Shown piece by piece: positions 6,677-23,355 of a stretch of 23,355 nt of DNA. Below the pieces are notes generated by a model that was not told the DNA's origin, did not search any database, and saw nothing but the letters and a program-made list of their open reading frames with translations. How positions within the stretch are numbered: the stretch's first letter is position 1; each line of letters starts with the position of its first letter. Source of the DNA: a virus. Made by a program: the position numbers and the translations under genes. The DNA lies in the IMG/VR virus record IMGVR_UViG_3300028176_000089, positions 1 through 23,355 of that record; one strand, written 5' to 3'.

Positions 6677-7417
6677 TCAGTCCCTAAACGCACAACAAAC
6701 CTTGTGGAGCAATTCTTTATCCGTCCAATTTGGGTCTGCATGGTCCCGATTCCAGTGTTGCAAAGCCACGAATGCCTCGGCCTCACTCATGCCCGAGTCT
6801 CTGAGTGCCATCGCAGCGCGATAGGCGTCCTTGTCGCCGCCTTGCCCAGCCACAGACCGTATCGAATCAATGTATTTCGCGCCGTCGCTTATCAGTCGCT
6901 CCCGGCCCGGCTGGCTGAACTTCGTCTCGGGCCGCCATGCCGGGTCGAATACCGGCAAGTCCGCCACGCTCGTCAGCTTGTGCCGCCAGTGGTAGCGACC
7001 TTCCGAATGTAGCGACGGCGGCGCCAGCACGTAGCTCCGGTCGCCCTTCACGTCATAGTGCCCGTTGATCTTCGTGCCGCTCATCACGTACTGGCCGGGG
7101 TGGCGGAAGTAGAAGTGTCGCCCGCGCCGCGTCTTTACCACTGCCGGGCTCTTGGCCACGTTGTTCCAGAACCACAGGGCGTCGTCCTCTGAGTCGCAAT
7201 CCACCACCACGATCCCTGAGATGGGGCCGGTCACTATGGCTAGGCCGTCATGTGGCCAGTCTACAAGCTCTTTCAGTGAAGGCCGGCGGTCCTGGTATTC
7301 CTTCCATGCGACGGCAGGCCGCTTGTCCTCTCCGATCGGTATGACTGAGAATCCAAACCGCTCCGTGTAGAGCGTTGCATACGCCACCCATGCCAATTCT
7401 TTCTCGCGTCGGTTCAT
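6677..7417 (-). CDS. Bifunctional primase/polymerase (prim-pol)-domain protein
   Basis: A 246-residue protein. After an N-terminal FGFSVIPIGEDKRPAVAWKEYQ segment come the catalytic acids D73-x-D75 (IVVVDCDSED), the RRGRHFYFRH strand with H101 and the YDVKGDRSYVLAPPS motif (about 121-135), all typical of archaeo-eukaryotic-type prim-pol domains. The last 50 residues (AYRAAMALRDSGMSEAEAF and onward) match the small helical domain seen after prim-pol in phage proteins. It would make primers for replication. It has no helicase domain of its own; the SF2 helicase overlaps just upstream (ATGA at 7414-7417) and probably works with it. Confidence 0.88.
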   Translation of the reverse strand: MNRREKELAWVAYATLYTERFGFSVIPIGEDKRPAVAWKEYQDRRPSLKELVDWPHDGLAIVTGPISGIVVVDCDSEDDALWFWNNVAKSPAVVKTRRGRHFYFRHPGQYVMSGTKINGHYDVKGDRSYVLAPPSLHSEGRYHWRHKLTSVADLPVFDPAWRPETKFSQPGRERLISDGAKYIDSIRSVAGQGGDKDAYRAAMALRDSGMSEAEAFVALQHWNRDHADPNWTDKELLHKVCCAFRD

Positions 7418-8943
7418 GCCACCCTCCCGTGAAGGTTTTCAACGGGAACGGAACCCACCTTTCGCCACCAGTCGCCAGGGTCTTTCGGCATCAGCGGTAA
7501 GTCACGCGGCGGCCAACCGTGGTTTTCAACGCAGTACAACGCTTCCGCTTGGCGGAAAGTACGCCCCGCCCGTTTCATGCGGTGGTACATGCGTTCCCAT
7601 ATCTGCTGTTCGTTAGGCTGGTGCCGCACTCGACGCGGTTTGTAAACGTCCCCATCGACTTGCCGCAGCGAACCGTCAATCTGCACCACCATGCGGCTCT
7701 TTTTGTGGGCGATGTACCCGCAGGCCGGGCACGTTCTTCCGCTGGCCCGTACCTTGCCGCACTCCGGGCACGTAATCGGCTCCGACTCTTTCCCTTCCCG
7801 AATCTTCTCTTGGCGTTCTCCGACTGCCCGATTGTTCGTGAGCCCGAGAGTCCATTCGCGGTCAACAGCGAGCGACCCATGCCGGTGCCAGTTGCCGCCG
7901 TGGTCGAGGACGATGCACTTCTTTTTGCCGACACTCGGGCACGCCCGCAGTAGCCGCCCGCCGCTCTGCAGGAAGGAAGTGAGCCCGCCGAACACGGTGG
8001 CGAAGATTCCGCACTCAACCCACGGCCAGTCAATGCCTTCTCTCAGAACGAAGCGATTACACACCACCTTAATCTCGCCGGCCTTGGCGAGTTCTGCGAT
8101 GTTCTCCCGGCTCTCCTGATCGGTGCCGTGAAACTCTCCGTCAAGCCATGTATCGGTCCCGTCGATATGGGCGGCGCGGATTCCCGCTTTGGTGAATTGT
8201 TCCGCGAACCAGATCGACTCTTTCACGCCGGGGGCAAATAGCAGCGTCGGTTTCTGTTCGGGGTTGTGTTCCTGCCACGCTTTGACGACCCGCCCGAAGA
8301 TTCCCGGCCTCATAATCGCCTTGACGTTATCCCGTTCGCTCAAATCCTCCCCGACCTGATACTTCTTGATGTGCCGTAAGTCGGGCTCGTCAGGGGCGTA
8401 GGTTTCAGGCTTCACGAGCGCCCCAATGGCAAGGCACTCCGACATGCAGCCGGCGACAAACAACTCATCGTACCCTTCCAGGTCCAGCGGGGTTGCCGTG
8501 TATCCGATGATTGTTGCGCCGGCGTCAACGTGGTCCTGCATGATACGCTGCATGGTCGGGCCGCATTGGTTGTGGGCCTCGTCCACAAGTACCAGCGACG
8601 CGCGGTGCAGTTCGCGGGATTGCGACTTGTACACCTTCGATAGCTCGCTCTGTGTCATGCAAAGCTGGACATCCCGCAGCAGCGCCGTCTTATGGCCGCT
8701 GGCCCGCTTGCCAAAGTCGATGCCCGCCTTGTCCAGTACCCTTGCTGTTTGGTCATAGAGCATCTTTCGCTGAGTGTACAAGGCCACTGGCGCGTTCTGT
8801 CCAGTAGCCCACAAAATCATATCCGTCATTATCTTGGTCTTGCCCGATCCGGTTGGACTGGTAATGCACAGCCGCCGGACGCAGCGACGTATCGCGTCGG
8901 TGGCACCCTCGAAGGCACGGTCTTGATTGGGCCAGTTCTGCAT
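7414..8943 (-). CDS. SF2 DEAH-box helicase with C-terminal zinc ribbon
   Basis: A 509-residue protein with Walker A SPTGSGKT (29-36), DEAH (121-124), motif III TATP (149-152), motif V-like REGIDWPWV (301-309) and motif VI QSGGRLLRACP (326-336), complete for an ATP-driven helicase or translocase. A zinc ribbon follows: C392-x2-C395 and C405-x2-C408. A basic C-terminal tail follows, with an aromatic EALYCVENHGWPPRDLP segment. It resembles phage DNA-unwinding helicases related to UvsW/RecG-like SF2 proteins. The ATG at 8941-8943 shares its last base with the ParB-like stop (TAATG), so the two are coupled. Confidence 0.92.
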   Translation of the reverse strand: MQNWPNQDRAFEGATDAIRRCVRRLCITSPTGSGKTKIMTDMILWATGQNAPVALYTQRKMLYDQTARVLDKAGIDFGKRASGHKTALLRDVQLCMTQSELSKVYKSQSRELHRASLVLVDEAHNQCGPTMQRIMQDHVDAGATIIGYTATPLDLEGYDELFVAGCMSECLAIGALVKPETYAPDEPDLRHIKKYQVGEDLSERDNVKAIMRPGIFGRVVKAWQEHNPEQKPTLLFAPGVKESIWFAEQFTKAGIRAAHIDGTDTWLDGEFHGTDQESRENIAELAKAGEIKVVCNRFVLREGIDWPWVECGIFATVFGGLTSFLQSGGRLLRACPSVGKKKCIVLDHGGNWHRHGSLAVDREWTLGLTNNRAVGERQEKIREGKESEPITCPECGKVRASGRTCPACGYIAHKKSRMVVQIDGSLRQVDGDVYKPRRVRHQPNEQQIWERMYHRMKRAGRTFRQAEALYCVENHGWPPRDLPLMPKDPGDWWRKVGSVPVENLHGRVA

Positions 8944-9737
8944 TACTTGCTCGCCTGCTTCCACTCGGCCAAGGTTGCCATGCACGTTTTGGTTTGGGCA
9001 ATGAGCGCCCGATGCAAGTTCCCGTGCTGGAATTGCCGATGCAGTTCGTCAGTGCGGTTGATGGCCTTACCGAACAACGCCTCGACTTCCACCCATAGCC
9101 GCGGGTCTTTCTTCTGCGCGCCCTGCTTGGGGGCTTCCGGCAGCTTCCCGGTTTTCAACGCCTTGGCCTGCTGCGCCTTGGGCAGCTTGGACGCCTTGAC
9201 GACTTTGGCCTTGCCGAGTTTCGACTTGCCGGCCAGGATTTCCGCCTTAGCTTCCGCCCCCTGCTGCTCAGCGATTGCGTCAACGGCGTCGGCAAACGCT
9301 TCGGCGCGTTGTAGCGTATCGGCGGAAACGCCTTGTTTTGCGGCAATTTCGTCCGCTGATAGCAAAACCGCAGAGTGCGGTTTTGCTCTGTCTCCGCCGC
9401 GGGGTAGCTTTAACTCCTTATAGAGCCTGCCAAGAGCGAATGTGCGATTGGCGTCAGTAAGATTTCTCCGGCCAAGTTGGTTTTTGAGGACAAATACGAC
9501 AACATCAGACTTTGAGGCAAACGTCATCGCCTTAGTCTTAAACGGCAGTCGGTGTGCCGTGCATATCTCGTAGCGATGCTCGCCGTCTATGATGATGTCG
9601 TTGTGGTTGGCCCAAACCAGGATCGGGTCGCGGCATCCCTCCGCAACAATCATGTCCTCAAGTGTCTTTTTTTCTTCGTCCGATAGGGATGGGCAAAGCG
9701 ATTTGATTTCGGGATCAATAGTGAGTTTTTGTGTCAT
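8943..9737 (-). CDS. ParB/Spo0J-like nuclease-domain protein
   Basis: A 264-residue protein. The N-terminal ParB-like domain holds EGCRDPILVW (33-42) and DGEHRYEIC (51-59), the characteristic DGxHR motif. A helical segment with SADEIAAKQGVSADTLQRAEA (about 127-147) looks like a DNA-binding HTH. A Lys/Ala-rich low-complexity linker (about 165-215) and a C-terminal helix follow. It could mark replication origins or regulate transcription; phage ParB-like proteins do both. The ATG at 9735-9737 overlaps the stop of the small frame upstream (ATGA). It starts the replication block and is followed directly by the helicase. Confidence 0.88.
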   Translation of the reverse strand: MTQKLTIDPEIKSLCPSLSDEEKKTLEDMIVAEGCRDPILVWANHNDIIIDGEHRYEICTAHRLPFKTKAMTFASKSDVVVFVLKNQLGRRNLTDANRTFALGRLYKELKLPRGGDRAKPHSAVLLSADEIAAKQGVSADTLQRAEAFADAVDAIAEQQGAEAKAEILAGKSKLGKAKVVKASKLPKAQQAKALKTGKLPEAPKQGAQKKDPRLWVEVEALFGKAINRTDELHRQFQHGNLHRALIAQTKTCMATLAEWKQASK

Positions 9738-9907
9738 GCTGCACCAACCCTTTCCGTGGCCCCATACTGGGCTATGTAATCAAGTAATGTTTCCGATGGC
9801 TCAAACCACTCCCCGTGCATGCGACTCTCCGCAAACCGCACGTGCAATGCTCTTTCGTCGCGTAACAGTCTCGTGCATAGTGGACGGGGCTGGACTCGAA
9901 CCAGCAT
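9734..9907 (-). pseudogene. C-terminal fragment resembling GIY-YIG/T5orf172 nuclease
   Basis: A 57-codon reading frame from ATG 9905-9907. The stretch DERALHVRFAESRMHGEWFE, then PSETLLDYIAQYGA, matches the conserved end of the GIY-YIG/T5orf172 (Mug113) family, where ER-x-LH-x-RFA leads to GEWF. The N-terminal GIY-YIG half is absent: upstream is the tRNA-like gene, which overlaps this frame by 27 bases, and no frame in 9952-10077 encodes the missing part. Its stop overlaps the ParB-like ATG (ATGA), so an internal start at 9818-9820 with GGAG upstream could still couple translation. Most likely a decayed nuclease gene; a functional short protein is less likely. Confidence 0.55.
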
Positions 9908-9951
9908 CTCCTCCCTTGTCAGGACGCCTCTACCAATTGGGCTACCCGTCC
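9881..9951 (-). tRNA. tRNA-like gene with an abnormal anticodon arm
   Basis: On the minus strand, 71 bases form a perfect 7-bp acceptor stem (GGACGGG with CCCGTCC, discriminator A), a D arm (GCC, a loop with AATTGGTAGA, GGC) and a perfect 5-bp T stem GCTGG/CCAGC with loop TTCGAGT. The anticodon arm is odd: TCCT pairs with AGGA around an 8-base loop (GACAAGGG), leaving only three bases before the T stem. Reading the T before GAC as position 33 would give anticodon GAC (Val) but breaks the stem. No CCA is encoded. It lies in the gap between modules and overlaps the nuclease fragment. It may be an unusual phage tRNA, a decayed one, or a tRNA mimic. Confidence 0.5.
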
Positions 9952-14950: not shown

Positions 14951-14963
14951 TGTCACTGCGTCA
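14951..14963 (-). promoter_or_regulatory. 13-bp motif, copy 5, over the stop of the protease gene
   Basis: TGACGCAGTGACA on the minus strand, spanning the last codons and stop of the gene at 14953-16773, just before the hairpin. Confidence 0.4.
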
Positions 14964-16773
14964 GCGTTTGGACCGCATCAACGGCCGCTTTCGCCTGCGC
15001 CGCACCGGGAACCACCGCTATAGCCGCTTGGGTGGCGACGTGAAGGGCGGAATCCGCTTTGGCTTTCAGGGCCGACAAGTCGGGGAGCTGGGCCTTAACC
15101 TTCTCCTCGACGGTATCCACGCGACCGTGAATCTTGGCTAGCAGTTCCACCAGCTTGTCGTCAACGGTGTTGCTCGTCTTGGCGGCCAACTCTTGCAGCT
15201 TCGGAATAGCCTTATTGTTGATCTTGTGAATCAGCATCAACAACACCAATCCGATACCGACGATTGCCGCACAGAAGATGAGCAAGGCGACCTTGGCCTG
15301 GGTGAAGCCCTTGAACCGGACGGCCGCCGATTCGCTGTCCATGTTCTCCTCGGCATTCGCGGCCAATCGGCTGCTGATAGGTCCGCCGTGTTCGGCCAGC
15401 CAAGAGGCTTCCTTGTCCGTGAGCCGACCGATAGCCGTTTTCATCTTCGAGGCATCGTCAGCGGGCTTCTCAGCGGGGGGAGCTACCACGGGAGGAGGAG
15501 CTTGTCGTTGCTGATTGGCAATCTGAGCTTGAATAGCCTGTAGGTTTTCGTTCACCCGCTCCAACTGAGCGGCCATCGCCGCGTCTTTGGCAGCTTCGCC
15601 AGAACGGTACGGCAACAGGAAGTTCCCGCCGGGGGCAGTCTGTGCGCCCGCAGTAGGAGAACAACCGCCCGGCCCGCATCCACTCGCCGAATCGCCCGGT
15701 TGCTGGTACGGTTCCGGTCCAGGCATCGGGGGCGTTGGGGATCGCTGAATCGCCACGGGGACTAGCTTACCCATCGACTGCGGAACGATGTAGGCGCGTT
15801 GCTGTACCTTCGGTATCGCGGAGTCCAAAAGAAGATGCAGCCTGCCAGATTGGACGCAAACCACTACCTTGCCGTCCGTGCCCCAGAGAACACCCACGAG
15901 GCGACCGCGTTCGTTGAATACCGGGCCACCCGAATCACCCTGCCTCGCGTAGCCGGAAATCTCCATCCAATCGTCGGGGCCGTTCATCGCGGCATTCGAC
16001 CGCTTGTAAGACAGAAACCGGCCGCTATTTATCGCCAGCTTCCCATCCGGGCCGTAGCCGCACGATTCGAGCACAGCACCCTCGCGCAGCAGTGCCGCAT
16101 CGCCCATTTCAATCTCGGCGGGCTGGACATTGGGGGTGCCCTTCAACTCGATAACCGCACAGTCCCAAACCGCGTCAACCTTCAAGACGGTGCCATAGTA
16201 TGTCTTGCCGGTCACGGCCTCGACGATGATCTTCTTCGCATCCTTGACCACATGCCTGGCCGTCAGCACCACAATCTTTCCAGCCCAGCGAACGAGCGTA
16301 CCGCTGCCGATGCTTCGCGTTTGCCACTTGACGCCAGTGCCTTCCTGGCAGTAGATGCGCACGATAGCAGCACGAGAACCAGTAGGTTCGGCGTATCGCC
16401 ACGCTCGCGTAGGAATCCCCTGCTTGGCCGGGCCAGCATTGTTGGGTCGTCGCAACTTCTGCTTCAACCGCTCGATGCTCACCGTGCCAGATACTCGGTC
16501 GATTTCCCTGCCGCGTTCCACCACAATAAACGTCGGCACGGCGTCCACCCGATACCGTTGCGCCATCGCCCTATCGCAATCAATGTCAATCCGCTGCACG
16601 GCGTAGCCGTCCAATGCCAGTTGGTCCACGGTCGGTGCCATTTCTCGGCAGGGCGAACACCACGGTGCGTAGAAGTCCATCAGCACTGGGCCATCCTCGG
16701 CCAGCGCCGCCACGGCGCCGAACGAAAGCAGCAGCATCGCCAGAATCGCAAACAGTTTGCCATCGCGTCTCAT
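14953..16773 (-). CDS. Secreted thioredoxin/trypsin-like protease fusion with a membrane anchor
   Basis: A 606-residue protein. Residues 1-25 are a signal peptide. A thioredoxin domain follows, with the redox motif W38-C39-S-P-C42 and the cis-Pro P79 (VDAVPTF). A chymotrypsin-like serine protease (about 135-310) has H173 (LTARHVV), D203 (WDCAVIEL) and S280 (QGDSGGP), so the triad is complete. A Pro-rich linker, a coiled-coil stretch (about 395-420), a membrane helix at about 492-515 and an Ala-rich C-terminal helix complete it. It should be exported, with the enzymes outside the inner membrane. Putting a disulfide-active and a proteolytic domain in one phage-like protein is unusual. The ATG is at 16771-16773 with GAGGAGG seven bases upstream. 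Confidence 0.88.
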   Translation of the reverse strand: MRRDGKLFAILAMLLLSFGAVAALAEDGPVLMDFYAPWCSPCREMAPTVDQLALDGYAVQRIDIDCDRAMAQRYRVDAVPTFIVVERGREIDRVSGTVSIERLKQKLRRPNNAGPAKQGIPTRAWRYAEPTGSRAAIVRIYCQEGTGVKWQTRSIGSGTLVRWAGKIVVLTARHVVKDAKKIIVEAVTGKTYYGTVLKVDAVWDCAVIELKGTPNVQPAEIEMGDAALLREGAVLESCGYGPDGKLAINSGRFLSYKRSNAAMNGPDDWMEISGYARQGDSGGPVFNERGRLVGVLWGTDGKVVVCVQSGRLHLLLDSAIPKVQQRAYIVPQSMGKLVPVAIQRSPTPPMPGPEPYQQPGDSASGCGPGGCSPTAGAQTAPGGNFLLPYRSGEAAKDAAMAAQLERVNENLQAIQAQIANQQRQAPPPVVAPPAEKPADDASKMKTAIGRLTDKEASWLAEHGGPISSRLAANAEENMDSESAAVRFKGFTQAKVALLIFCAAIVGIGLVLLMLIHKINNKAIPKLQELAAKTSNTVDDKLVELLAKIHGRVDTVEEKVKAQLPDLSALKAKADSALHVATQAAIAVVPGAAQAKAAVDAVQTLTQ

Positions 16774-16833: not shown

Positions 16834-17022
16834 CTAGCCGTGAATCAGCTTGTACGCCGCAGCAGCAGCCGTGATAATCGCCGCGACAGAAGCACCGGCA
16901 ATTGACAGCCACTTCGCTAGATCGAACCACGTCTTATGCAGCAGGCCCAGGAACACCTTGGCTGGTACGGGCTTCTTCGTGTGGTGGTGCCCCACCCCTT
17001 TGACGCCAACTGTTTTAACCAT
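16834..17022 (-). CDS. Small membrane protein with a basic His-rich N-terminus
   Basis: A 62-residue protein. Residues 1-25 are basic with HHH at 12-14 and TKKPVPAK; residues about 35-58 are hydrophobic (LAKWLSIAGASVAAIITAAA), one membrane helix. It is likely a holin-like or inner-membrane partner of the envelope group. The ATG at 17020-17022 has AGGGAAAG immediately upstream and follows the papain-like stop by seven bases. A longer frame upstream of this start is a shadow. No named family. Confidence 0.6.
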   Translation of the reverse strand: MVKTVGVKGVGHHHTKKPVPAKVFLGLLHKTWFDLAKWLSIAGASVAAIITAAAAAYKLIHG

Positions 17023-17029
17023 CTTTCCC

Positions 17030-17662
17030 TCATGGGACGAGTGTGAACATTCCCTTGAAAAACGCTGACCGAGCCAAGTCACCCGGTTCGGTCGCACGAT
17101 CCGCGAGGTTCGGTACGGGGTCCACGCCTCCCGCTCGACAAGCAGCCGAAACGGCCGCAGAGCAGAACGGCATAGCGGTGGATTCCTTGTCGTCCACGTC
17201 GGCCCGGACGAACCACCGGATGATGGGGAGGTGAACCCACGACGCCTTGAACAACGTCCAGTAGCCATACGGGCGGCCGGTGATTTCGAGCATCGCATGG
17301 AGTGCCGCCTCCCGGTTGAACTTCCGCCGGCTGGCGTTGGCCTTGTACACGTCGCACGTCCCCGGATACTGGTTGACGACGTTGCTCAACAGTTGGGCTC
17401 GGCCGCCGTCGAACGTCATCTCAACGCACATGAGACGATTCCCCCACCAGCCAGCCATTGCCGCATGGCAGTATTCCGACCGCCCGCTGACGAGGAAAAG
17501 GCCCGTGTACCAGTCCCGCGACCGGAACAGCAGCACGTCTCCGGTCTTGATCTTCCCGCGAACTTCGTTGTACGACTTGGACGGCAGGACGGACTCGATG
17601 GACACGCCATCAGTCAACGAATCCCAGAAGTCGGCCGGAAGTTTCGGTTCTTGTTCTTGCAT
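17030..17662 (-). CDS. Permuted papain-like (YiiX/NlpC-P60 type) amidase or peptidase
   Basis: A 210-residue protein. KTGDVLLFRSRD (39-50) starts the core, H66 lies in YCHAAMAG, E81 in VEMTF, and the probable nucleophile C167 comes late, in MPFCSAAVSAACRAGG. His before Glu before a C-terminal Cys is the order of circularly permuted papain-fold enzymes such as YiiX. It may cleave peptidoglycan stem peptides or lipids/amide bonds in the envelope. There is no signal peptide. It sits between a secreted CAP protein and a small membrane protein. Start ATG 17660-17662 with GAGGGA close by. Confidence 0.75.
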   Translation of the reverse strand: MQEQEPKLPADFWDSLTDGVSIESVLPSKSYNEVRGKIKTGDVLLFRSRDWYTGLFLVSGRSEYCHAAMAGWWGNRLMCVEMTFDGGRAQLLSNVVNQYPGTCDVYKANASRRKFNREAALHAMLEITGRPYGYWTLFKASWVHLPIIRWFVRADVDDKESTAMPFCSAAVSAACRAGGVDPVPNLADRATEPGDLARSAFFKGMFTLVP

Positions 17663-17669
17663 GATTCCC

Positions 17670-18122
17670 TCAGTCAGCCGCGAGAATTACCCCGTACCAC
17701 GTTCCGTTGCGCCCCTGCGCCTCACCCGTTCCAATGAACCGATGGGCAACCCGCGCCGTCCGCCAGTGCCCCGGCGATTGCTTCCAGCACTTGACGTACT
17801 CGGCCCACCGCTCGTCCTTGCTGGCGCCGGACTGCCAGGCCCACGTCTCGGCACAAATCTCAGAGTATCCGCTGGCGGTTATCACCTCCCGTAGGCGGCC
17901 AACTCTTGCGGAAAAACCCTGATGACCCTGTGTCATGGATTGGGCCATGAACTCAGCGTGACCTTGCGCCTCGGCATCCATCGCGGCCGAGTGAGGCGAC
18001 CCCAGCGCCGGGCACGCGGGCAGCTTCTCTGCTGCCGACGCCACCTGCGCCAGCAGCAGGAAGAAGGCCACCACCAGGGCGGCAATTCCCGTCAGCAGTC
18101 CGGTCCAGGCCACAGTTTTCAT
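17670..18122 (-). CDS. Secreted CAP/SCP-domain protein
   Basis: A 150-residue protein. Residues 1-30 are a signal peptide (hydrophobic core ALVVAFFLLLAQVASA). The CAP domain contains HAEFMAQSMTQGHQGFSARV (55-74), AETWAWQ, and the signature SPGHWRTARV with VAHRFIGTGEAQGRNGTWYG at the end. CAP proteins bind lipids or act on surfaces; no specific substrate is visible. The start at 18120-18122 has GGAAG close by and is preceded by a good promoter and a copy of the 13-bp motif. Its stop is seven bases from the next ATG. Confidence 0.82.
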   Translation of the reverse strand: MKTVAWTGLLTGIAALVVAFFLLLAQVASAAEKLPACPALGSPHSAAMDAEAQGHAEFMAQSMTQGHQGFSARVGRLREVITASGYSEICAETWAWQSGASKDERWAEYVKCWKQSPGHWRTARVAHRFIGTGEAQGRNGTWYGVILAAD

Positions 18123-18250: not shown

Positions 18251-21200
18251 CTACTTGCCCAGCTTCCGCGACCCACGCGAATTAACGTCCGTGCGGATCG
18301 GATCGTAGAGGGCTTTCAGTTCCTCGTACTCGCGTTTGCCTTCGGGCGTGCGGTCGTTGAAGGCGGTTTTCATCTTACTGTCCCACTTCTTCCGCAACGC
18401 ACCCGCCACTTGGTTCTTTTCCTTGTCCGTGGCAAGGTTGTACGCCTCAATCGCTTGGCGCAGATTGGACCGAGCGAAGAAGGTTGGGAACCCCGGCGCC
18501 AAGTCCAGCTTCTTCTGTGCGGCGTGAATCTGCCGGCTGTTCGCGTATTCGCCAAGTGCCTTGGAATCCAGCCGCTTGGCGCCAGAATCCCGAGCCGCCT
18601 TGACGGCCTGGATGACCTTCGTAGCACGCTCCACGTCGGCCTTGGTGCGAGGCGGGCGGGGAACCTTGCCGAACTCGTCCAGTAAATACTGAGACGCCTC
18701 CGAGCGTGTATGGGCCGCTGGCACTGGTGTAATGCCGAAGAATGCTTGCGTCTGCCCCTTCCATCCAGCACCTTCCTCCGAAAGCTGCTGCATGTTCCGA
18801 ATGCTGAGGGGGACAAACTTGGACCCGATATGCTTCCCGTAGTCCAGCGTCTTTCGGCCAGCAGCTTGCAGCTTCCCTTCGCCGGCTACCGGGGTGGTAA
18901 TCTGTGTGCCGAAGTAGTCCGTCCCCTTGTAAATGTCCGCAATCGCTGCCAAGGCAGGATTCAGCGAGTGCTGGGCCAGGGCAATCGGGTGCGTCAACAG
19001 CGCGTACCAGTCCCTCTCCATACCGGGGGAAGCCACGCGGCTTGCTGTGCCGTCTGGGTTCATGTCACCCGTCCGCGGCTCGAAGAAGTCCTGCAACTCC
19101 GTTTCGTCGTCCCAAGGGAACTTGCCGGTCTTGAGGTACTGGTAGACCGTATTGAACAGCGCCGTTCCCGCCAGTACGGCCGGCAAGTGAACGATACTGC
19201 CGGTCAGTAAGTGCCGGCCGGAACCGGGCTCGCCTTTCACCGCGTCACGAGCCGCCATGTAGAGTGCGCCGAGATTGCCACCCTTCCAGCCGGGGGCAAA
19301 GAACACCAATTGCGCCAAGTCTTTCGAGACTCGGTTCATGTTGATGTTTTCCCAGTTCACTTGGCCGAAGCGGGCGTCCACGTCGCCGCGAATCTTTCGG
19401 TAGGCCACACTCCGCTGATCCTCGCTGGCCCCCTGGTGCGTCGCTTCCCACTCGGCTTGCAGGTCGAGAGCCACGCCCACCTTAATATCGCCCGCCGCCC
19501 GCATGACCGGCTTGGTGGTGAACTCGGGGGCCGACATGACAGCATGGAAGAATGCCTTGGCAGCTTCCGTACCCTTCTGGATTGCGTTCAAGTCGGGGGC
19601 CTTCATCTTGGCCCAATGCACCTTGGCTTTTTGCCAATCGCCAGTCATCGAGGCGGACAATAGGGCACCGCCTTTTTCCGACTCGGTGATTTGCTTTCTA
19701 CGCTCAGGTGTCAACTCAGAGTCGGGCTTGAGCCGGTCGGCCCGCCATTGTTCAGCCGGCGATCCCACCAACCCCGTGGTGGCCGAAAGAATATCTCGGC
19801 CGATAGTCAATGGCGATGCAAGGGCCAGTCCAGCAGCTTTGCCAGCCTGCCCGAAACTGCCCTTGCTCCACGGCTGCAACCCGTGTTCGATCATCGACCC
19901 AAGGTAAGTCTCGAACTTCTTGCGAGCCACGTTCGTCAAGTGGAATGCCGAGAGCGTTAGGCTCGATTGCAGCATCTTCTGCTGGACGAACCGCAACCCG
20001 CCCAGCCCGAGAGACAGCACGTTGCCAGCAACCCCACCCCGTTGCAGTTTGGCCCGCAACCCCTCCGACCCGTACCGCTCGACCGCTCGTGCCAATTCGT
20101 TAGGCAGCGCCCGATACCCCATGATGCGCATGCCGTGAATCGGAACCTCGTACTCACTCGACCCCAGCACCAGCGACGGCTGGATGTCCAGCAGCGGCTT
20201 GAGCTTGGGGTTCTCAGACAGGAACCGCACGAAGGCTTTGTAGACGTGGGGGGCAACCTTTTGGAACTCGCCGGGGGCGTGTAGCAATGCTTCCAGCATG
20301 ACGGCTTCTTTCTCGGCCCCCTTGCGCACATACTTCTTGTACGCATCGGTAGTCTCTTGGCCCTTGAATCGGGCGTCGGCCAAGTCCCGCATCTCCTTCT
20401 TGATCTGGACCCGCTCGGCAACGTCTTGGGGGTTCGTATCCTTTGGGTCGCCATTCATCCAGTCCAGCAATCCATAACGGGTTCCGATGATGTGCCCGAT
20501 CTCATGGAACAACACGGCCAACTGCCCATTCCGCTTGGTCACGACCTCCTTGTCCCCATAGGCCACGCCCCACTTCTTGCCCCCGAGATTCAGCACGCGG
20601 CTCATGTTGACGCCCATGCTGCGGCCGAACTCGTGAATCTGGTCGAACTGTACGGCGTCGTAGGCTTCTTTCATCGTCATGGTCGGCGGGCCGAAGATCG
20701 TGAACATCGACGATGGCATTCCGTTGACGATTGGAACGTGCCAGCCCGGCTCGGACTGCAAGCTGCTTTGCGTCTTAATCCAGCCCCGCTTGTCTGCGAA
20801 GTCGTACAGCCGCAAGTCGCGCAGGTAGTCCGTTGCGCCATCGTACCGAATCCGCTGCATTTCCAGCGGGTTGTCGGAAATTGGCTTGAGCCAACCGGCT
20901 TGCCGATCCAGTTCCTTGGCTTCCTCGTCACGCCCTTCGCGTCGGGCCTTCTCGGCTTTCTCCATCAGCGACTTACGCAACTCCCGGCCCGCCTTCATGC
21001 TGTCCAGCGTCCGCTCCATCATCATGCTTGGCTTGCCACCTTCGCGGTAGCCAGCGTTCGGACGGCCGGCGAATAACTCGGGCAGCGTCTTTTGTAGCCA
21101 CGATTGCCCTTCCTTGCTGCTACTGCCCTCGTAGCCGCGAGAGAAGTAGAACGGCGCCCGCTCATCTTCCGTCAGCTTGTCGGGCCGAATCTCATTGATC

Positions 21201-23355
21201 GCGTCCGCCCAGGCGGTCCATCGGTCCATCCACGCCTTGGCAACACGATCCAATTCTGGGGTAGCTTGGGCCTCGCCCTTCTCCCAGCGGTCGATGAACT
21301 GGTCGCGTTCTACTTGCGGCAACTTCCACATGGCCACTTCCGCTTGGCCAGTTTCGGCCTCGGCCTGGTCCATGCTCCGTTCTTTCTTGGCATTCTCGAA
21401 ATTGCGTTCCGCCTGGAACACCGGCAAGTCGGGCATCTCCAATGCCTTCTTGGCAGCCAGCAAGTGACTGGCCATGATCTTCTTCGGCGGTTCCGGGGGC
21501 TCGGGTGCGGCCGTGGTCGTATCCGCCGGGGGTGGCGGTGGATTGTTGCCCCGGTCGTCCAGGCGGCGGGCCGCGTACTTTCTGGCGTTATCTGCTATCG
21601 AACCGGGCTGCTCCTCAAAGGCCATCGCTGCATTGCCACCGGAACCACCGGGGGAACGGCGCGAGGGTGGAGAGGCGGGGCCATCGTCAAACCCCGGATC
21701 GTCGGGCGGGGCTGGTGGTGCGGGCGGGGTGGGTGCAGGTTTCTCGCCTTCCGTAAACCCAATATCACCCCTACCTAGCGCGACGCCCTTGCCCGACTCT
21801 GCCCCGCGGACAATCGCGTGCAAGTCTCGCATTCGGTTGCCGACGCGAGTGGACTGGTCCTGCTCGAATGGGATGTTTTTACCGAACAGCCAGTCAATCG
21901 TGACCGGCTTCTTAATGCCCAGCCGGGGAAGTCGGCCGATAGTCTGGTCCAACTTTGTTGCCGTCCACGGTACGTTGAGAACAACCATCGCCCGTTCCGG
22001 CATTGTCCCCGTGGTGTCGTGAAGCGACAGCCCTGTTCCGCCCTTGTCCATTGTAGCCAGGAGGATCGGCAGCTTGCCCGCCTTCCACTTGGACAGATAC
22101 CGAGTCGCCTGCGCGTCAGATTGGTCGCCCGTGTATAGGGCTAGTTTTTCTTCGCCAAAGGCTTCCTGAAATGCCTTGATCGTCGAGGGAATCTCATACT
22201 GGATTCCGCGGTCGTGCAGGACTGAGGCGATTTCCTCAATAAACGGCGCGAAAGGTGGGGGCGGCACAGGCTCCTTCATCGCCTTCGCCATCTTCTTTTC
22301 TTCGCGCCATGCGTCCATCATCCGACGAATCTGCGGGTAGTCGTAGAGCGGCCCGGTAGCGTCATCGCGCATCCGATACTTACCGATGTTCTTGTCGGCC
22401 TTGGTTTCCAGATATATGACCACCTGTTTGCCAGCGTCAACCAACTTGCGAACATGGTCAATGGCGAATGGGACTTTCGCTGATTCCAATATCCGCTTTG
22501 CCACGTTAATGCCGTGCATCTTGATCTTGCCGGCATTCTCGGACCCATCCTGGGCCTGGTCGTAAGCGCCCACGAGGTCATGGTAGCGATTGACCCATTC
22601 CAGCGGAACGTCATGCGGAACGAACTCGGTATAGACCATCCCTTCGGGAAGTTGCATGGGTTGTTGCGTCATCATGCCGCGTCGCTTGAACCACTCGTTT
22701 GCGGCCTTCTGCAACTCAACGCCGTAGTCGCCCATGTGAACCCAGTAGGGCGTCTCTACCTTCTCGCCATCGACCACTTTCGTTTTGACCTGGGCACCGT
22801 GCATCTTGGCCCACTCGACGAATCCGCCCTCGCTGTCAAACGCGCCGGTAGCATCGAGGAACTTGGCGTCAACGGGATTTCTAAACGGGGTGGCGCTTGC
22901 CAGGGACACGAACTTGGCGTCAGCCATTGCCTTCTGCGCCGACTCACCCCGCTGAGACTTTAGGTTGGTGATGTTCTGCGATTCGTCCAGAATGAGAATC
23001 GCATCCTTGGTGTCTACTCCACCTTCACCGAACTTCGCGTAAGAGACGAACTGCACCCGGTCGGCACCGAAATCGCGTAGGTCTTTCCGGTTTTGCTCGA
23101 TCAGGTCTTGCGAAGTGGTAACGTAGACAATCTTCTTCTCGCCAGAATCGAGAAGTTCTTTGATGAAGCCGCCCGTTACGAACGTCTTGCCCATACCGGG
23201 GTCACTGGCAAGAATATGGACGGGCTTGCCGGTGACGAATGCCCTATGCGTGCGGGCAACGTCGTCAATCTGGGCGTCTAAGATGGAATCGGGGATTCCG
23301 GCGGCGGAACCGCGTCGGATGAGTTCTTGCGTCGATAGCTGAACGTATTTATCAC
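18251..23355 (-). CDS. Giant polyvalent protein: SF2 helicase plus zincin metallopeptidase (5' end beyond window)
   Basis: 1700 codons are visible and the frame is open to the window edge, so the start is missing. An internal Met that is part of Walker A is not the start. Counting from the first visible codon: Walker A DPGMGKT (51-57), DESQ (123-126), SATP (153-156), ATMDKGGTGLSLHD (433-446) and QTIGRLPR (470-477) make a complete SF2 helicase. A Pro/Gly-rich linker spans about 540-625. A zincin motif HEIGH (950-954) is followed by a Glu-rich helix (KEAVMLEALLHAP). The remaining 700 residues are mostly helical, with hydrophobic stretches (SIVHLPAVLAGTALFNTVYQ). This layout matches phage polyvalent proteins thought to be packed in virions and injected with the DNA. 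It may protect or remodel incoming DNA and cleave host factors. Confidence 0.88.
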   Translation of the reverse strand, partial: DKYVQLSTQELIRRGSAAGIPDSILDAQIDDVARTHRAFVTGKPVHILASDPGMGKTFVTGGFIKELLDSGEKKIVYVTTSQDLIEQNRKDLRDFGADRVQFVSYAKFGEGGVDTKDAILILDESQNITNLKSQRGESAQKAMADAKFVSLASATPFRNPVDAKFLDATGAFDSEGGFVEWAKMHGAQVKTKVVDGEKVETPYWVHMGDYGVELQKAANEWFKRRGMMTQQPMQLPEGMVYTEFVPHDVPLEWVNRYHDLVGAYDQAQDGSENAGKIKMHGINVAKRILESAKVPFAIDHVRKLVDAGKQVVIYLETKADKNIGKYRMRDDATGPLYDYPQIRRMMDAWREEKKMAKAMKEPVPPPPFAPFIEEIASVLHDRGIQYEIPSTIKAFQEAFGEEKLALYTGDQSDAQATRYLSKWKAGKLPILLATMDKGGTGLSLHDTTGTMPERAMVVLNVPWTATKLDQTIGRLPRLGIKKPVTIDWLFGKNIPFEQDQSTRVGNRMRDLHAIVRGAESGKGVALGRGDIGFTEGEKPAPTPPAPPAPPDDPGFDDGPASPPSRRSPGGSGGNAAMAFEEQPGSIADNARKYAARRLDDRGNNPPPPPADTTTAAPEPPEPPKKIMASHLLAAKKALEMPDLPVFQAERNFENAKKERSMDQAEAETGQAEVAMWKLPQVERDQFIDRWEKGEAQATPELDRVAKAWMDRWTAWADAINEIRPDKLTEDERAPFYFSRGYEGSSSKEGQSWLQKTLPELFAGRPNAGYREGGKPSMMMERTLDSMKAGRELRKSLMEKAEKARREGRDEEAKELDRQAGWLKPISDNPLEMQRIRYDGATDYLRDLRLYDFADKRGWIKTQSSLQSEPGWHVPIVNGMPSSMFTIFGPPTMTMKEAYDAVQFDQIHEFGRSMGVNMSRVLNLGGKKWGVAYGDKEVVTKRNGQLAVLFHEIGHIIGTRYGLLDWMNGDPKDTNPQDVAERVQIKKEMRDLADARFKGQETTDAYKKYVRKGAEKEAVMLEALLHAPGEFQKVAPHVYKAFVRFLSENPKLKPLLDIQPSLVLGSSEYEVPIHGMRIMGYRALPNELARAVERYGSEGLRAKLQRGGVAGNVLSLGLGGLRFVQQKMLQSSLTLSAFHLTNVARKKFETYLGSMIEHGLQPWSKGSFGQAGKAAGLALASPLTIGRDILSATTGLVGSPAEQWRADRLKPDSELTPERRKQITESEKGGALLSASMTGDWQKAKVHWAKMKAPDLNAIQKGTEAAKAFFHAVMSAPEFTTKPVMRAAGDIKVGVALDLQAEWEATHQGASEDQRSVAYRKIRGDVDARFGQVNWENINMNRVSKDLAQLVFFAPGWKGGNLGALYMAARDAVKGEPGSGRHLLTGSIVHLPAVLAGTALFNTVYQYLKTGKFPWDDETELQDFFEPRTGDMNPDGTASRVASPGMERDWYALLTHPIALAQHSLNPALAAIADIYKGTDYFGTQITTPVAGEGKLQAAGRKTLDYGKHIGSKFVPLSIRNMQQLSEEGAGWKGQTQAFFGITPVPAAHTRSEASQYLLDEFGKVPRPPRTKADVERATKVIQAVKAARDSGAKRLDSKALGEYANSRQIHAAQKKLDLAPGFPTFFARSNLRQAIEAYNLATDKEKNQVAGALRKKWDSKMKTAFNDRTPEGKREYEELKALYDPIRTDVNSRGSRKLGK

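Follow-up and report, generated by a model that had tools for sequence, protein, structure and literature searches.

A giant viral protein fragment with an SF2/SNF2-like helicase and a conserved C-terminal module in which a zincin is an optional insertion

What kind of protein is encoded by a viral reading frame that joins a helicase to a metallopeptidase and continues past the end of its contig? The stretch of DNA analysed here (the window) is an IMG/VR viral fragment of 23355 bases, and its minus-strand frame at 18251-23353 runs off the end. Polyvalent proteins are predicted injected phage proteins that carry multiple weapons. We read the 1700 residues present as the C-terminal part of a phage polyvalent protein, consisting of cargo, linker and delivery module, and give this reading, jointly with the model of packaging and ejection described below, a probability of about 0.75. 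The frame contains, in order, an SF2/SNF2-like helicase, a Pro-rich linker and a mostly helical tail, which forms a module into which a zincin with the motif HEIGH is inserted (Table 1). The initial annotation had named a complete SF2 helicase, a Pro-rich linker, an HExxH zincin and a long helical tail with hydrophobic stretches in a protein of about 1700 or more residues. The first three features were recovered, and the length holds for the part present, the N-terminus being cut off. The tail is helical as described, but where several hydrophobic stretches had been noted it has a single conserved hydrophobic helix, and its nature as a conserved module had been missed.

Table 1. Features of the giant gene and of its downstream neighbours in the window.
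Feature	Coordinates	Strand	Basis
Giant polyvalent protein (reading as above), 1700 aa, N-terminus past the contig end	18251..23353	(-)	open frame
Helicase/translocase domain, SF2/SNF2-like, with intact motifs, residues 1-520	21794..23353	(-)	Pfam, phrog_62, identities
Pro-rich linker between cargo and C-terminal module, residues about 535-625	21479..21751	(-)	sequence; coding periodicity kept
Module first half, residues 660-890	20684..21376	(-)	profile A5 match; pairwise matches
MtfA-like zincin inserted in module, residues 890-1072	20138..20686	(-)	10 homologues; model; Foldseek
HEIGH zinc-binding motif, residues 950-954	20492..20506	(-)	aligned HExxH in 10/29 carriers
E1014, probable third zinc ligand, invariant	20312..20314	(-)	alignment; aligns with Glu of MtfA helix DPAECFA
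Module second half, residues 1074-1680	18314..20134	(-)	alignment A8; 29 records
Invariant APGW motif, residues 1353-1356	19286..19297	(-)	29/29 sequences
Conserved hydrophobic helix, residues 1382-1400	19154..19210	(-)	hydrophobicity, 29 members
Secreted CAP-like protein, 150 aa, downstream neighbour	17670..18122	(-)	signal peptide; family by inspection only
Papain-like (NlpC/YiiX type) hydrolase, 210 aa, downstream	17030..17662	(-)	phrog_1128, E 6.6e-10; family by inspection
Small membrane protein, holin-like by position, downstream	16834..17022	(-)	translation, inference
Protein with signal peptide, thioredoxin, trypsin-like protease and TM helix, 606 aa, downstream	14953..16773	(-)	Trypsin_2, E 7.1e-21; Thioredoxin, E 1.8e-18

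The frame, which holds two biochemically unrelated domains (helicase and zincin) in one polypeptide, was examined for integrity. A stop-free run of 1700 codons has a chance probability of about 10^-26 at the base composition of the window, and third-position GC stays between 0.68 and 0.82 from end to end. This signal is constant through the linker and thus gives no indication that two frames were fused. On other viral contigs, each half of the protein recurs within giant proteins encoded by single frames, and a more distant helicase is joined to the same module within single frames of L010, L136 and L150. On these sequence comparisons a gene-fusion artefact is excluded, and an assembly fusion of two genes, which the initial annotation had named as one possible objection and for which we found no favouring evidence, has a negligible probability. 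In relatives, from about 170 to more than 3300 residues precede the helicase; the corresponding N-terminal part of the window protein is cut off.

The isolated helicase piece matches Pfam AAA_34, ResIII and Helicase_C as well as the DNA helicase family phrog_62 (E 7.7e-24), and the Walker A motif GMGKT, the DE, SATPF and GGTGLSLH motifs and the QxxxRxxR region are all present. The phrog_62 and AAA_34/Helicase_C matches place it, like the helicase of DarB, in the SWI2/SNF2 clade of SF2. The nearest named sequence is the helicase WP_014510995.1 of Thermus thermophilus plasmid pTHTHE1601 (30% identity over 495 aligned residues), which shares inserts with the window helicase but is a stand-alone protein of 621 residues without zincin or module. 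Thermus igniterrae and Meiothermus luteus have similar helicase genes as well. The stand-alone version of this phage helicase in Thermus and Meiothermus (L002:11638-13503, L084 and L085) is plasmid-borne in T. thermophilus.

Nearer relatives of the helicase, at 32-43% identity, are domains of giant proteins from viral contigs (L171, L155, L154, L153, L156-L170, L004-L006 and L011). These giants have 3108-4597 residues where the frame is closed, and at least 5204 (L155) and at least 6776 (L166) where it reaches the fetched edge. The L004 giant also carries ddrB-ParB and an HSP90/gyrase-like ATPase, the L011 giant ART-PolyVal and the L007 giant an inorganic pyrophosphatase. At a cut-off of E 1e-3, the C-terminal module of the window protein was detected in 0 of the 21 checked loci with the nearest helicases. 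Therefore, as far as the sequences seen can tell, the window combines known parts in a new way by pairing this helicase subgroup with the module. Two of the giants have further peculiarities. The HSP90/gyrase-type ATPase domain of L004 (12065-12394, residues 2092-2201 of 4174; PF13589, E 2.7e-10) lies just after the helicase and is unusual for a polyvalent protein, and L166:2-20329 is a single open frame in which the window-type helicase is accompanied by a HELAH motif.

Residues 660-1680, first described as a long helical tail, form a C-terminal module that is conserved and begins just past the Pro-rich linker. Scans of viral and genome contigs with the single protein gave no relatives, the search peptides lying in unconserved places, and it was alignments that found them. 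L010 was matched first, a directed scan added 13 loci, a profile scan gave 33 loci and a search of whole records gave 29 carriers, that is, the window and 28 other uncultured viral contigs. Profile A5, in which the window itself is one of 13 rows, matches G000:18311-21361 with an E-value of 1.5e-218, and pairwise matches to the module begin at window residues 653-822 in several relatives. The second half contains 35 invariant columns in the 13-row alignment A8. The hydrophobic helix lies about 30-45 residues past APGW, and in 21 of the 29 members no other 19-residue stretch of the entire protein is as hydrophobic. The module is always C-terminal, in carrier frames of 1534 to 5245 residues, with one frame of 893 residues (L143) cut by the contig edge.

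No Pfam model matched the module, either in full L086, L089 and L096 (E up to 0.1) or in the window tail; domain libraries beyond Pfam were searched with the window protein only. Nothing matched in tblastn searches of 50,697 phage records with the whole window protein and with the tails of the window, L010 and L098, while a plasmid search with the window protein and tails returned helicase matches only. Neither the whole protein nor the tail profile nor the helicase had relatives in a PDB sequence search. An identity with LPD38 was considered for the tail and rejected (hhalign of A8 against the LPD38-bearing tails A7, probability 0.4%). Because the structure model of the whole module is weak (pLDDT 59.7), fold matches in the PDB were used for the zincin only; most of the tail is predicted to be helical. 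In a BFVD structure search, the module came nearest to a 'DNA helicase' from an uncultured phage, of which it matched a C-terminal piece (E 2e-12), and it also matched an entry named 'large polyvalent protein associated domain-containing protein' (E 3e-4); both matches had low TM-scores. From these matches between predicted structures, relatives of the module are probably already in UniProt, though no model names it. The window module is at most 26% identical to any other and sits on a very long branch, too long to place on the module tree. The window's single protein is thus only a divergent member of the module family, and transfer of function to it is weaker than among the other members.

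The zincin lies within the module in 10 of the 29 carriers, the window among them. Its homologues are 29-35% identical to the window, and H950, E951, H954, E1014 and E1021 are invariant in all 10. An AlphaFold model computed with these 10 rows predicts a helix, three strands, the HExxH helix and a Glu helix, with domain pLDDT mostly 65-94. Alignment and predicted fold thus both give the HExxH motif and the Glu in the second C-terminal helix that mark a zincin MPTase. The first Foldseek match is MtfA (3dl1; probability 0.99, E 0.011), followed by anthrax lethal factor and ArdC; the E-values are not below 0.001, but most top matches are nonetheless zincins. MtfA is a cytoplasmic single-domain protein of family M90. 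Its HExxH and AE..A helix align with the window zincin, but the score of the latter against the Pfam M90 model, 16.7 bits, is far under the cut-off of 26.2. The window sequence HEIGHIIG lacks the Asp three residues past HExxH that relatives mostly keep (HEIGHQLD). The module tree implies four or more gains or losses of the insertion, which is therefore optional, cleavage not being essential for the family.

The targets of MtfA, lethal factor and ArdC are other proteins or processes of entry. That these three have the folds nearest to the zincin is consistent with a host-targeting entry weapon, in which the zincin would cleave a host protein, for example of the envelope or of a defence complex, while the helicase would disrupt host DNA processes. 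We consider this unlikely: the zincin is often lost while the module stays, an observation that equally fits self-processing or a dispensable role, and we know of no host target for it. Moreover, Iyer et al. argue for autoprocessing by the MPTase of polyvalent proteins (PMC5512222). The 'anti-host entry system' of the initial annotation goes beyond the data, and the helicase-zincin combination of the window is not new, contrary to what had been suggested, since polyvalent phage proteins of this design were described in 2017 (Iyer et al., PMC5512222).

The window protein resembles the class of Iyer et al. in having disparate domains in one giant polypeptide, an HExxH MPTase with a downstream Glu helix and an SF2/SNF2-like ATPase. 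It differs in that neither a DNA methylase nor an LPD domain is seen in the part present and in that its module matches no Pfam model. Searches of the 1700 residues found no LPD, ART-PolyVal or ddrB-ParB domain, the N-terminus being cut, but at the family level the likeness extends to these domains, which are present in relatives sharing the helicase or the module.

The cargo ahead of the module is diverse. In the 21 N-terminal parts of module carriers that were scanned, InPase and ResIII each occurred three times, SAM lyase, GGDEF, HAD_SAK_2, Helicase_C and SNF2 twice, and ddrB-ParB, Strawberry-notch helicase, ART-PolyVal, Kinase-PolyVal, LPD1, LPD3, LPD5, LPD22, 2H ligase, RadC, Eco57I, Acb1 and others once each. 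L132/L087 further carry InPase, LPD3 and RadC. The predicted cargo of the carriers thus consists of known conflict enzymes and varies among phages. The window protein couples an SF2/SNF2-like ATPase, itself intact, to a module that elsewhere bears other anti-host enzymes, and within which the zincin is optional. What is added to the known class is this shared C-terminal module, with its optional zincin insertion and varying cargo. The cargo also bears on whether the protein could be a motor or pore for DNA entry, with the module and its hydrophobic helix forming an ejection conduit through which the ATPase pulls the DNA. The position of the conserved helix after APGW and the portal genes adjoining the carriers would agree with this, but unrelated cargo replaces the ATPase in most carriers, which therefore cannot be a general motor, and solved ejection proteins gave no match to the module. 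We regard a conduit of this kind as very unlikely. As a separate observation, SAM lyase and Acb1-like anti-CBASS domains sit inside giant proteins of module carriers. Such enzymes are usually made after infection, and their presence in the giants suggests virion-delivered forms.

The genes adjoining module carriers encode portal (L098, L087), terminase (L097), virion structural and tail fibre (L095, L010) and endolysin (L086) proteins. Terminase or portal lies on the strand of the giant gene in 18 of the 19 module records with such a match, the exception being G021 (two-sided binomial 8e-5 if the records are independent, with kinship and mostly one-strand genomes not accounted for). In six records one of these genes lies close downstream of the giant gene, at about 0.5-3 kb (portal in G017, G020, G026 and G041; terminase in G024 and G025). 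In the window, whose contig ends within the giant gene, searches of the other genes found no structural (virion) gene. The cluster that follows the giant gene had been called an envelope operon. A cluster is indeed there, but it is better read as a lysis/host-envelope cluster of CAP-like, papain-like, membrane and thioredoxin-trypsin-TM proteins, of which the CAP-like and papain-like genes just past the giant gene are possibly the lysis or envelope part. The papain-like hydrolase has relatives in three other records. A promoter-like site at 18194-18166, of a kind expected 0.5 times by chance, precedes the cluster and suggests that it has its own transcript.

Beyond the lysis-like cluster, the next genes on the same strand are those of replication and recombination (exonuclease VIII-like, HNH, Prim-Pol and second helicase genes). 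Such neighbours would suit a giant protein that is not virion-borne but made in the infected cell as a replication/recombination helicase and matured there by the zincin. The window, however, already has a separate helicase beside its Prim-Pol gene (7414-8985; phrog_16, E 8e-54), and the module relatives sit with portal and terminase and carry conflict enzymes, not replication proteins. Replication genes common to the window and the module carriers amount to one weak case. A replicative role of this type appears quite unlikely to us.

Known virion-borne proteins offer a comparison. BcepIL02 gp70 (4667 aa) is 32% identical to L134 over about 1600 residues and 34% identical to L150 over about 1360 residues, both of which carry the module. 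At its own C-terminus, however, no match to the module of the window was detectable; this end is similar to the tails of L014, L015, L016 and L023. Its homologue JC1 gp69 (4515 aa) was found in CsCl-purified virions by mass spectrometry with 51 unique peptides, and its gene is placed between the virion and lysis modules (PMC9144972). Similar cargo on two different C-terminal modules supports the view that the C-terminus can be exchanged and that the protein travels in the virion. These DarB-like Lessievirus proteins are, like the window protein, encoded by giant frames (4515-4667 aa) with a helicase. Their genes close the virion module and precede lysis genes, and in the window lysis-like genes follow. 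The helicase profile of the window is only marginally similar to them (E 0.019). In N4 vRNAP, packaging requires the C-terminal MPTase-bearing region (PMC5512222), which supports a role for the C-terminus. P1 DarB, a virion-borne SF2 helicase protein that acts against restriction, is instead packaged via its first 30 residues (PMC9024508), so packaging need not depend on the C-terminal module. DarB combines this N-terminal capsid signal with an adenine methylase, which together with LPD36 precedes its SF2 helicase; no such methylase is found in the part of the window protein present, whose N-terminus is cut.

We therefore read the giant protein as one probably carried in the virion, by analogy with these cases. 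As the initial annotation had suggested, it would be a polyvalent protein on the DarB/DdrB/N4-vRNAP theme, a proposal strengthened by the late-gene regions of the carriers and by the two carriers that share cargo with the homologue of a virion protein. We propose that it is made late and packaged in the head near the portal, and that its ejection with the DNA is helped by the module and the hydrophobic helix. The zincin would cut the polypeptide during maturation or after entry and free the helicase cargo, and the freed ATPase would act on the entering genome, most likely by warding off host restriction or repair nucleases, as DarB does. This model of packaging and ejection is supported by the 28 other viral records in which a giant ORF closes with this module behind conflict-enzyme cargo, by the matches of the module in the BFVD search, by the co-directional terminase and portal genes of the carriers, close downstream in six, and by the presence of JC1 gp69 in virions together with the lysis-like genes that follow the giant gene in the window too. 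Against it count a window in which the searches found no virion gene and whose upstream part is missing, nearest helicases that lack the module, and the variable presence of the zincin.

A module common to 29 giants with different cargo, anti-restriction and anti-CBASS enzymes included, amounts to a defined candidate part for packaging and entry. It might even be an uncatalogued general delivery chassis of phages, self-processing and membrane-interacting, that loads interchangeable anti-defence cargo and carries it into the cell, although we hold this broader idea to be somewhat doubtful. If it is true, cargo would be naturally swappable between phages. The motifs APGWTGG, RLGQV and FRTG..DE.GN.ER provide a sequence handle by which new anti-defence cargo may be found through its attachment to the module.

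Two minor observations concern other genes of the window. For the 606-residue downstream protein, the matches listed from the phage collection cover only the thioredoxin part. At 9880-9951 on the minus strand, a lone tRNA gene is called as tRNA-Cys with the anticodon printed as aca, where the usual Cys anticodon is gca, so the call is odd or false.
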